From positions 62,001-126,000 of the forward strand of contig JANXSZ010000009.1 of the NCBI GenBank assembly GCA_025356445.1: 64,000 bases of DNA, read 5' to 3'. Each line of letters begins with the position of its first letter. The stretch's first letter is position 1. The notes under the pieces were generated by a model. The model was not told the DNA's origin and searched no databases. It saw only the letters and a program-made list of their open reading frames with translations. Shown here one piece after another: positions 4,558 through 7,399 of this stretch. Source of the stretch: Betaproteobacteria bacterium (GTDB taxonomy: Bacteria > Pseudomonadota > Gammaproteobacteria > Burkholderiales > Burkholderiaceae_C). Both the position numbers and the translations under genes were made by a program.

Positions 4558-6017
4558 TGATTTCACGCGAACCCACCCTCGAACGTCTGGCTATTGCCCA
4601 AGGCCTGTTGCTGCAACCTTTTGGCCTCGATGAGTCGCACCTGACCCGTGCACTGGCCGAGATCACCGCCCACAAGGTGGACGATGCTGATCTTTACTTT
4701 CAATACACCCGCAGCGAAGGTTGGAGTCTCGAGGAAGGCATCGTTAAAACCGGCTCCTTCAGCATCGACCAAGGCGTGGGCGTGCGGGCCGTCAGCGGTG
4801 AAAAAACCGCGTTCGCTTACTCCGACGACATCTCCGAGGCTTCGTTGCTCGATGCGGCACGCACAGTGCGCACCATTTCGGCTGCAGCGCAGAACAGAAA
4901 AGCGAAGGTAGCTACTCAAAAGATAGCAAAAAGCCGCTCGCTCTACAGTGGCCTTGATCCTATCGCCTCGATGGACAGCACTGCCAAAGTCGAGCTGTTG
5001 GGCCGCGTCGAAAAACTCGCCCGCGCCAAAGACCCCCGCATCATGCAAGTGATGGCCAGTTTGGCCAGCGAGTACGACGTGGTGATGGTTGCCCGCATGG
5101 ACGGCACCCTGGCCGCCGATGTGCGCCCGCTGGTGCGCCTGTCCGTCACGGTGATGGCCGAGCAAAATGGTCGCCGCGAAACCGGCTCCGGTGGCGGCGG
5201 TGGCCGTTTTGGCTTCGCCTACTTTGACGACGCCAAGATCGAAGAGTACGTGAGTGACGCTGTGAACGCTGCTTTGACCAACCTGGAAGCTCGCCCCGCC
5301 CCCGCAGGCGAGATGACCGTGGTGCTGGGCTCGGGCTGGCCCGGTATCTTGCTGCACGAAGCCATTGGTCACGGCCTGGAAGGGGACTTCAACCGCAAAG
5401 GCTCCAGCGCCTTCGCAGGCCGCATCGGCCAACGCGTCGCCGCCAAGGGCGTGACGGTGCTGGATGACGGCACCATCAGCGACCGCCGGGGTTCCCTCAA
5501 TGTGGACGACGAAGGCCATGTCAGCCAGCGTAACGTGCTGATCGAAGACGGCATCCTGAAAAGCTACATCCAGGACGCCATGAACGCCCGCCTGATGGGT
5601 GTCAAGCCCACCGGCAATGGCCGTCGCGAAAGCTACGCTCACGTTCCTATGCCACGCATGACCAACACCTACATGCTGGGCGGCGACAAAGACCCGCAAG
5701 AAGTCATCGCCAGCATCAAAAAAGGCCTATACGCCAGCAATTTTGGTGGCGGTCAAGTGGACATTACTTCTGGCAAGTTTGTCTTCTCGGCGAGCGAAGC
5801 GTTTTGGGTGGAAAACGGCAAGATCCAGTACCCTGTCAAAGGCGCCACGATTGTGGGCAGCGGCCCTGAATGCCTGAAGAAAGTCAGCCTCATCGGCAAT
5901 GACATGAAGCTTGACCCCGGTGTCGGTACCTGCGGCAAAGAAGGCCAGAGCGTGCCCGTGGGCGTGGGGCAGCCTACGCTGCGGATTGATGGATTGACCG
6001 TGGGCGGGACGGCTTAG
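4557..6017 (+). CDS. tldD: Metalloprotease TldD
   Basis: 486 aa, matching TldD of the TldD/TldE (PmbA) protease, which trims modified peptides and degrades unfolded peptides. The zinc site HEAIGHG (His267, His272) is intact within GILLHEAIGHGLEGD. The C-terminal VGVGQPTLRIDGLTVGG is typical. Residues about 113-130, between the N-terminal domain and RSLYSGLDPI, contain a segment coded by an AT-rich 17-mer repeat (4911-4927) in a variable loop. No pmbA/tldE is adjacent. Confidence 0.95.
   Translation: MISREPTLERLAIAQGLLLQPFGLDESHLTRALAEITAHKVDDADLYFQYTRSEGWSLEEGIVKTGSFSIDQGVGVRAVSGEKTAFAYSDDISEASLLDAARTVRTISAAAQNRKAKVATQKIAKSRSLYSGLDPIASMDSTAKVELLGRVEKLARAKDPRIMQVMASLASEYDVVMVARMDGTLAADVRPLVRLSVTVMAEQNGRRETGSGGGGGRFGFAYFDDAKIEEYVSDAVNAALTNLEARPAPAGEMTVVLGSGWPGILLHEAIGHGLEGDFNRKGSSAFAGRIGQRVAAKGVTVLDDGTISDRRGSLNVDDEGHVSQRNVLIEDGILKSYIQDAMNARLMGVKPTGNGRRESYAHVPMPRMTNTYMLGGDKDPQEVIASIKKGLYASNFGGGQVDITSGKFVFSASEAFWVENGKIQYPVKGATIVGSGPECLKKVSLIGNDMKLDPGVGTCGKEGQSVPVGVGQPTLRIDGLTVGGTA
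4911..4927. repeat. 17-mer dispersed repeat copy in tldD
   Basis: GCTACTCAAAAGATAGC: exact GCTA-N9-TAGC ends, AT-rich centre, in frame within tldD. Confidence 0.5.
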
Positions 6018-6061
6018 GCCTCTTCTCAATCACTTGGTTTACCCAGGTGCTCAGGCGCCTG

Positions 6062-6070
6062 TGCTACATT
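6062..6070 (+). promoter_or_regulatory. Putative extended -10 promoter of the aroG leader
   Basis: TGCTACATT matches an extended -10 (TGn-TAnnnT). It places transcription start near 6076-6078, next to the leader-peptide ATG at 6079. No convincing -35 is present, which is common for extended -10 promoters. Confidence 0.4.
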
Positions 6071-6078
6071 TCACAACT

Positions 6079-6150
6079 ATGCAGCTTCGCAAATTTGCCT
6101 ATTTTTACTTTTGGTTCTCAGTCCCCGGCGGACGAGAGGCGCAACTGTAG
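6079..6150 (+). CDS. Putative aromatic-rich leader peptide upstream of aroG
   Basis: This 23-codon ORF begins MQLRKFAYFYFWFS and ends GREAQL then TAG. Seven of the eight residues at positions 6-13 are aromatic (Phe4, Tyr2, Trp1; only Ala7 is not). It ends 18 nt before a strong intrinsic terminator that lies just upstream of the DAHP synthase gene. This is the architecture of ribosome-mediated attenuation: ribosomes stalled at scarce Phe/Tyr/Trp codons would favour readthrough into aroG. There is no Shine-Dalgarno, but the start lies 8 nt after a -10-like box, so it may be translated from a leaderless end. Confidence 0.75.
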   Translation: MQLRKFAYFYFWFSVPGGREAQL

Positions 6151-6168
6151 ACCTGCACACCTCACGAC

Positions 6169-6205
6169 AACCGCCAGAGTTTCACAACTCAGGCGGTTTT
6201 TTTTT
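6169..6205 (+). terminator. Intrinsic terminator / attenuator before aroG
   Basis: Arms AACCGCCAGAGTT (6169-6181) and AACTCAGGCGGTT (6186-6198) form a 13-bp stem with one mismatch around a TCAC loop, followed by nine Ts. The 5' arm CCGCC (6171-6175) can alternatively pair with GGCGG at 6127-6131 inside the leader ORF, a weak candidate antiterminator. The aroG start codon is 49 nt downstream. Confidence 0.85.
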
Positions 6206-6253
6206 GCCCCTTGTATTTTGTTGATTTTTTGATTTCACCTTGAGGAAACCACG

Positions 6254-7399
6254 ATGACCGCCTTGAAACAAGCCCCCGCCAGTTCCACCGATGCCGACAC
6301 CTGGTATCCACCCGGCACGCAACCCATCGACCGCACCAGCCAGACCGACGACGAGCGTATCAAGGACATCACCGTGTTGCCCCCTCCAGAACATCTCATC
6401 CGCTTCTTCCCCATCCGGGGCACCGCCACCGAGCAGCTGATTGACGGCACGCGCAAGCGCATCCACAACATCATGACGGGCAAGGACGACCGCTTGCTGG
6501 TGGTGATTGGCCCTTGCTCCATCCATGACCCGGCTGCCGCCATTGACTACGCCCGCCGCCTGAAGCCGCTGCGCGAGCAGTACGCCGACACGCTGGAAAT
6601 CGTGATGCGCGTGTACTTCGAGAAGCCCCGCACCACGGTGGGTTGGAAGGGTCTCATCAACGACCCGTACCTCGACGAGAGCTGCCGCATCGACGAAGGT
6701 CTGCGCATTGCCCGCCAGTTGCTGATCGAGATCAACCGCATTGGCTTGCCCGCAGGCAGCGAGTTCCTGGACGTGATCTCGCCCCAGTACATCGGCGATT
6801 TGATCTCCTGGGGCGCTATCGGTGCGCGTACCACCGAAAGCCAGGTTCACCGCGAACTGGCCTCGGGCTTGTCAGCCCCTATTGGCTTCAAAAACGGCAC
6901 CGATGGCAACATCAAAATCGCGACCGACGCCATCCAGGCTGCAGCGGGTGGGCACCACTTTTTGTCGATCCATAAAAACGGCCAGGTCGCCATCGTGCAA
7001 ACCAACGGCAACAAAGACTGCCACGTCATCCTGCGTGGTGGCAAAGCACCGAACTACGACGCCGTCAGCGTGGCTGCCGCCTGCAAAGACTTGGTTGCCG
7101 CCAAATTGCCCGCATCATTGATGGTCGATTGCAGCCATGCCAACAGCAGCAAGCAGCACCAAAAGCAAATTGAAGTGGCGGGTGATATTGCCGCGCAGAT
7201 TGCCGGCGGCTCGCACAGCATCTTTGGCGTGATGATTGAAAGCCACATCAATGCCGGGGCACAGAAATTCACACCCGGCAAAGACGACGTCAGCAAGCTG
7301 ACCTACGGCACCAGCATCACCGATGCCTGCATTGGTTGGGATGATTCTGTGGCGACGCTGGGTGTGTTGGCGCAGGCGGTGAAGACGCGGCGCGGTTAA
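6254..7399 (+). CDS. aroG: 3-deoxy-7-phosphoheptulonate (DAHP) synthase, class I, AroG-like
   Basis: 381-aa enzyme that condenses phosphoenolpyruvate and erythrose 4-phosphate, the first step of the shikimate pathway. The sequence follows E. coli AroG closely from memory: DDRLLVVIGPCSIHD, RVYFEKPRTTVGWKGLINDP, GAIGARTTESQVHRELASGL, DCSHANSSKQ and a terminal VKTRRG. A Shine-Dalgarno (TGAGGA) precedes the ATG. Regulation appears to be by the leader peptide and terminator immediately upstream. Which aromatic amino acid inhibits the enzyme cannot be told from sequence by eye. Confidence 0.95.
   Translation: MTALKQAPASSTDADTWYPPGTQPIDRTSQTDDERIKDITVLPPPEHLIRFFPIRGTATEQLIDGTRKRIHNIMTGKDDRLLVVIGPCSIHDPAAAIDYARRLKPLREQYADTLEIVMRVYFEKPRTTVGWKGLINDPYLDESCRIDEGLRIARQLLIEINRIGLPAGSEFLDVISPQYIGDLISWGAIGARTTESQVHRELASGLSAPIGFKNGTDGNIKIATDAIQAAAGGHHFLSIHKNGQVAIVQTNGNKDCHVILRGGKAPNYDAVSVAAACKDLVAAKLPASLMVDCSHANSSKQHQKQIEVAGDIAAQIAGGSHSIFGVMIESHINAGAQKFTPGKDDVSKLTYGTSITDACIGWDDSVATLGVLAQAVKTRRG

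Follow-up and report, generated by a model that had tools for sequence, protein, structure and literature searches.

Among the described systems close to the locus studied here is the AroR leader of the aroF operon in Corynebacterium glutamicum (Neshat et al. 2014 as cited in PMC11802643; also PMC4046766). An aromatic leader peptide and ribosome-mediated attenuation act there on a DAHP synthase gene, as we propose for our locus, but the host is an actinobacterium, the leader reads Phe-Tyr-Phe only, with no Trp reported there, and it is reported to respond to Phe and not to Tyr; the two leaders were compared by description only (PMC11802643). The uORFC-13-1 motif upstream of aroF in Acholeplasma, represented by 24 sequences, is also similar in that a DAHP synthase gene is preceded by a predicted upstream ORF, in which a U run encodes Phe, and by an intrinsic terminator, but it belongs to another phylum, has a ribosome binding site, and is noted for at least one Phe (PMC8632094). 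An attenuator leader ORF on a leaderless mRNA is known from a proteobacterium, namely rnTrpL/peTrpL of Sinorhizobium meliloti, which reads Trp only and lies upstream of trpE; its start site has been mapped, whereas that of our leader is predicted (PMC7298713, PMC10117765).

Upstream ORFs with F and Y have been noted at shikimate genes in five other genomes. In Escherichia coli the DAHP synthase isoenzymes are controlled by TyrR and TrpR. The pheL-pheA and trpL-trpEDCBA attenuators of this species have the same four-strand logic of control codons, antiterminator, and terminator as the leader described below, but they respond to one amino acid each and act on other target genes. Leaders that read several end products of a branched pathway are known from ilvGMEDA (Ile/Val/Leu) and thrABC (Thr/Ile) of E. 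coli, and the aroG leader would resemble these in its multi-residue reading, in a different pathway. No Rfam family (trp, phe, and other leaders, T-boxes, riboswitches) reached its gathering threshold anywhere in the window, by which we mean the whole 64-kb stretch of DNA analyzed, and relaxed thresholds gave only chance matches there.

Results

A sequence-only reading of the window had proposed a 23-codon ORF with F-A-Y-F-Y-F-W-F at residues 6-13, and both the ORF and its translation were present as claimed (Table 1). A stretch with seven aromatic residues out of eight occurs only once across all six frames of the window; 20 Markov-simulated windows contained a mean of 0.0 stretches of this kind and 0.1 of the 6-of-8 kind. 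The suggestion that one leader reads all three aromatic amino acids holds for this genome and for most of its relatives, with F, Y, and W all present in 111 of 128 leaders, but a minority of lineages has no Trp codon (F and Y only in 16 of 128). Phe is dominant, the mean numbers of codons per leader being 4.5 F, 1.8 Y, and 0.93 W. The presence of Tyr in 127 and of Trp in 112 of the 128 leaders points to strong retention of these rare residues.

The identification of the downstream gene as a DAHP synthase gene was confirmed by its match to DAHP_synth_1, and this aroG is the only class I DAHP synthase match in the source genome, where no class II match was found. In the stem of the terminator preceding aroG (ΔG, -16.2 kcal/mol), CCGCC (6171-6175) pairs with GGCGG (6192-6196), and beyond these lie one A/A mismatch, GAGU(U)/(A)ACUC, and A-U closing pairs (6169-6198). 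The nine Ts had been read correctly, but the stem has about 12 bp with one A/A mismatch and not 13 perfect pairs, and we counted 48 nt, not 49, from the last T to the aroG start codon. The tldD gene, on the same strand, ends upstream of the leader at 6017. An inverted repeat lacking a T-run, CAGGTGC-TCAG-GCGCCTG (6044-6061), is located just upstream of the -10 element.

Table 1. Features of the aroG leader region (positions in the window)
Feature	Position	Strand	Description
Extended -10 element	6062..6070	+	TGC-TACATT; 8 nt before leader ATG; putative promoter
Leader peptide ORF	6079..6150	+	MQLRKFAYFYFWFSVPGGREAQL, 23 aa; ATG 6079 to TAG 6150; aromatic control codons 6094-6117
Strand 1	6115..6124	+	UUCUC-A-GUCC; overlaps last Phe codon; predicted to pair with GGAC/GAGAG, sequestering strand 2
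Strand 2	6127..6139	+	GGCGG 6127-6131, CG 6133-6134, GAGG 6136-6139; 5' side of predicted antiterminator
Strand 3	6160..6175	+	CCUC 6160-6163, CG 6165-6166, CCGCC 6171-6175; partner of strand 2 or of the terminator 3' arm
Intrinsic terminator	6169..6205	+	3:4 hairpin 6169-6198; nine-T run 6197-6205
Shine-Dalgarno of aroG	6242..6248	+	GAGGAAA, from sequence
aroG	6254..7399	+	class I DAHP synthase, 381 aa; DAHP_synth_1, PF00793, E 4.7e-95

Conservation of the aromatic run and the terminator upstream of aroG, which had been named as the check to make, was found in Comamonadaceae-level relatives, in distant Burkholderiales, and beyond the order. Our sample of relatives comprised 61 genomes, 37 of them from the same family as the source genome. 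All 37 carried an aromatic leader upstream of the aroG orthologue, and the terminator was scored in every one except L034, where the scan ended inside the hairpin. We collected 98 distinct leader-plus-terminator loci, and the aromatic leader recurs in more than 120 loci. Loci with GTDB names include those of Variovorax, Polaromonas, Acidovorax, Comamonas, Hydrogenophaga, Burkholderia, Paraburkholderia, Caballeronia, Massilia, Rugamonas, Janthinobacterium, Rubrivivax, Ideonella, and a Bordetella MAG. The leader-terminator pair was absent upstream of all 20 paralogous DAHP synthases, among which we observed a single chance 5-of-8 ORF, without a terminator; orthologues that lack the leader mostly lack the terminator too.

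We searched further with R1, a covariance model trained on Burkholderiales sequences only. Strict filtering at E ≤ 1e-4 left matches, some of them shorter than full length, in 94 of 300 genomes of the order, and the other matches in the source genome were mainly partial and fell on the terminator end of the model. Full-length matches were found upstream of DAHP synthase genes (57-64% identity of the enzymes) in other gammaproteobacterial families outside the training set (L141-L144; for example MNAARASFYFWYYFPKPLAEEGLRSP and MLPNRYWFYFFYVF) and in another proteobacterial class, which we infer to be the Alphaproteobacteria, with FWYF-type leaders (L197-L207; for example MITVATSYFWYFSYDSLLAAGGSRSI and MIHLTASFWYFYYSSLAAGGLRSI). 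At L213 (genome G058) an R1 match, MLRTAPYFFWFWYPTLLAAGRK, precedes the first of a tandem pair of DAHP synthase genes, and the DAHP synthase match of this first gene has one in-frame TGA. A contig labelled as a Devosia sp. MAG (L130) has the leader MNLRAAYSYWYFSTGSRWQPKGAV and a terminator before a DAHP synthase that is 63% identical to the one in the window; this may be a genuine member from another class or the result of misbinning.

None of 97 leaders had a tetramer resembling a Shine-Dalgarno sequence at positions -16 to -4; aroG of the window does have such a sequence (Table 1). In 67 of 98 leaders the ATG follows 6-8 nt after a -10-like hexamer, the extended -10 consensus TGTGCTACATT is kept in the Comamonadaceae-type leaders, and base -1 is C in 76% of leaders, giving the usual pyrimidine-purine start. 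In the leaders of the other class we recognized by eye GTGACA, about 17 bp, TATATG, and 6-7 nt before the ATG. Hence, because a Shine-Dalgarno sequence is lacking and about two thirds of the leaders have the hexamer at this distance, the leader mRNA is probably leaderless, starting at or within a few bases of the ATG. Leaderlessness is not universal, since several Burkholderia- and Massilia-type leaders have a -10-like box about 35 nt upstream instead, also seen by eye.

The antiterminator had been called the weak point of that reading, with only a 5-bp GGCGG/CCGCC pairing evident. This pairing is present, but it is extended in the window by a helper helix (GAGG:CCUC), which gives a whole antiterminator of about -16.6 kcal/mol, and it covaries. 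The longest exact match between strands 2 and 3 in the window alone (5 bp) is within chance (p 0.30), so support for the antiterminator rests on the family. Over seven pairs, 93% of cells were consistent with 2:3 pairing, compared with 15-52% when one strand was slid by 1-3 bases. The inner core is nearly invariant and thus neutral for covariation, and the covariation at pairs 4 and 5 (exchanges of G-C to A-U; C-G, U-A, A-U) was reached by none of 1000 shuffles, which ignore relatedness. When each sequence was folded without strand 1 and before the addition of strand 4, the core of the 2:3 pairing had a probability above 0.97 in all 98 homologues, and additional pairing of the segment following GGCGG with the segment preceding CCGCC was also predicted in 98 of 98. 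The helper helix is moderately above chance, at 4.6 bp versus 3.9 bp expected (mean z -0.97, spacer shuffled).

GGCGG stands at the anchor position in 112 of 120 distinct homologues and does so across all three reading frames (frame 0 in 65 leaders, frame 2 in 59, and frame 1 in 4). After the aromatic run the nucleotides GGCGG..GAGAG or GGCGG..GGAGG are kept and the encoded residues vary (SVPGG, HRTGGG, PLADREG, NPKAVE, SLAAGG); L026 and L027 even use a frame unlike that of their close relatives and retain the nucleotide motif. Conservation of GGCGG irrespective of frame is what would be expected for an RNA element and not for a peptide motif.

The 1:2 protector hairpin is the weakest and least certain element of the model. 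Folding of each sequence predicted 1:2 pairing in 94 of 98 homologues, and in the free window transcript to 6182 the pairing of strand 1 had probabilities of 0.98 (inner) and 0.82 (outer). Compared with shuffled versions of arm 1 the mean z was only -0.66. RNAalifold gave no consensus structure for the region from the run to the stop codon and did not recover the 1:2 hairpin, probably because indels misplace strand 1, and this gap was handled by per-sequence folding and anchored covariation.

Folding also confirmed that the locus can form mutually exclusive structures, with 2:3 covarying. In the free transcript to 6182 the 1:2 hairpin had a probability of 0.98 and the 2:3 pairing one of 0.02. 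Stalling was modeled with the ribosome edge 15 nt from the first P-site base. On the same transcript, a stall at Phe6 raised the probability of 2:3 to only 0.36, and stalls further along gave 0.94 (Tyr8), 0.97 (Phe9), 1.00 (Tyr10, Phe11, and Trp12), and 0.80 (Phe13); thus, codons for all three amino acids lie inside the effective zone. With the ribosome at the stop codon of a partial transcript ending before strand 4 the probability was 0.39, so the repressed state would need ribosome release and the 1:2 hairpin, or the stability of the terminator. With strand 4 present, the terminator is favored over the antiterminator at equilibrium in every modeled state, and the switch must therefore be kinetic. 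A kinetic decision is accepted for classical attenuators.

Other aromatic leaders were met during these searches. The source genome has a separate Trp-type (WLW) leader, MFIRRNIPTGAMPGRQDRGAWLWRKPVH, upstream of the larger-scoring chorismate-binding gene, which is probably trpE (about 575-670 of L168, from G000:C8). This leader has TGCTACACT 7 nt ahead of the ATG, lacks a Shine-Dalgarno sequence, and is probably a second leaderless attenuator, for Trp only. The gene with a PDT domain (pheA type) in this genome is closely preceded by another gene, and its upstream region has no aromatic leader. In one Burkholderiales family, L212 and L217 (G653), L218 (G592), and L219 (G683) have an almost identical aromatic leader, MITFSAVFNAYFYWYRSSRRLQGASLD, with a GGCGG/CCGCC terminator. 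Downstream of these leaders is an ORF of 206 aa that matches no Pfam family; in L212 at least, the ORF after it, of 112 aa, resembles a membrane protein, and the 7.5-8.5 kb examined contained no DAHP synthase match. Possibly, these are aromatic leaders on another gene.

Discussion

The aroG leader is very probably a ribosome-mediated transcription attenuator, judged from its parts, their conservation and covariation, and the thermodynamic feasibility of the switch. It has a short ORF rich in codons for the end products, an intrinsic terminator between this ORF and the gene, and an antiterminator that excludes the terminator and lies just downstream of the control codons. From these features we infer where the promoter and start site lie, that the leader is translated, that ribosomes stall on it, and that the switch responds to Phe, Tyr, and Trp. 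Transcription would start at or a few bases from the leader ATG, and the peptide would be read off a leaderless or nearly leaderless mRNA. With plentiful charged tRNA-Phe, tRNA-Tyr, and tRNA-Trp, the ribosome would clear the run and strand 2 would be either covered or held in the 1:2 hairpin, leaving strands 3 and 4 to form the terminator and end transcription before aroG. If any of the three charged tRNAs were scarce, the ribosome would stall on the run and cover strand 1, and strand 2 would pair with the emerging strand 3 (GGCGG:CCGCC and GAGG:CCUC), pre-empting the terminator so that DAHP synthase could be made.

We consider it rather unlikely that attenuation responds mainly to Phe and that the Tyr and Trp codons have little effect. 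Phe codons dominate the leaders, Trp is missing from 16 of 128, and the C. glutamicum aroF leader is reported to respond to limitation of Phe and not of Tyr (PMC11802643); against this, nearly all leaders retain Tyr and most retain Trp, and in the window a ribosome stalled at Tyr10, Phe11, or Trp12 would cover strand 1 and leave strand 2 free. Attenuation by shortage of any one of the three might also be joined by an action of the terminated leader RNA or the peptide in trans, as for rnTrpL/peTrpL of S. meliloti. We regard this as improbable: rnTrpL is a short leaderless attenuated RNA of the same form (PMC7298713), but outside the run the residues vary from lineage to lineage.

A further alternative is sensing of the nascent peptide or of free amino acids by the ribosome, as in TnaC, in place of codon stalling. 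In the Comamonadaceae group the run ends in a conserved peptide, WFSVPGGRE, for which a role in the exit tunnel is conceivable, yet what is conserved after the run is nucleotides and not residues, with shifts of frame, and the residues differ by lineage, which makes a TnaC-like mechanism very improbable. An ordinary terminator of tldD next to a chance ORF deserves practically no credence. The position of tldD, upstream on the same strand, would allow it, but the aromatic run has no counterpart elsewhere in the window, is found again in more than 120 loci, and accompanies the DAHP synthase orthologue but not the paralogues; conservation refutes this explanation.

Overall, a proteobacterial aroG leader was not described in the literature we searched, a search that was incomplete and whose silence is not proof. 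The leader is well conserved and apparently undescribed, the idea of aromatic leaders on DAHP synthase genes being already known. It is quite possible, and we propose it tentatively, that an ancient, proteobacteria-wide leaderless attenuator acts as a translational OR gate, in which a shortage of any one of Phe, Tyr, and Trp opens the common pathway, and that it serves lineages, the present one among them, in which isoenzyme-specific repressors cannot control the single DAHP synthase. The leader offers a test case for attenuation from leaderless mRNAs and, as a naturally occurring RNA part that possibly responds to three amino acids together, would be useful for engineering aromatic compounds. 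For lineages including Variovorax, Polaromonas, Acidovorax, Comamonas, Burkholderia, and Massilia, in which the papers searched describe no such regulator, it predicts control of aromatic synthesis at the entry step.
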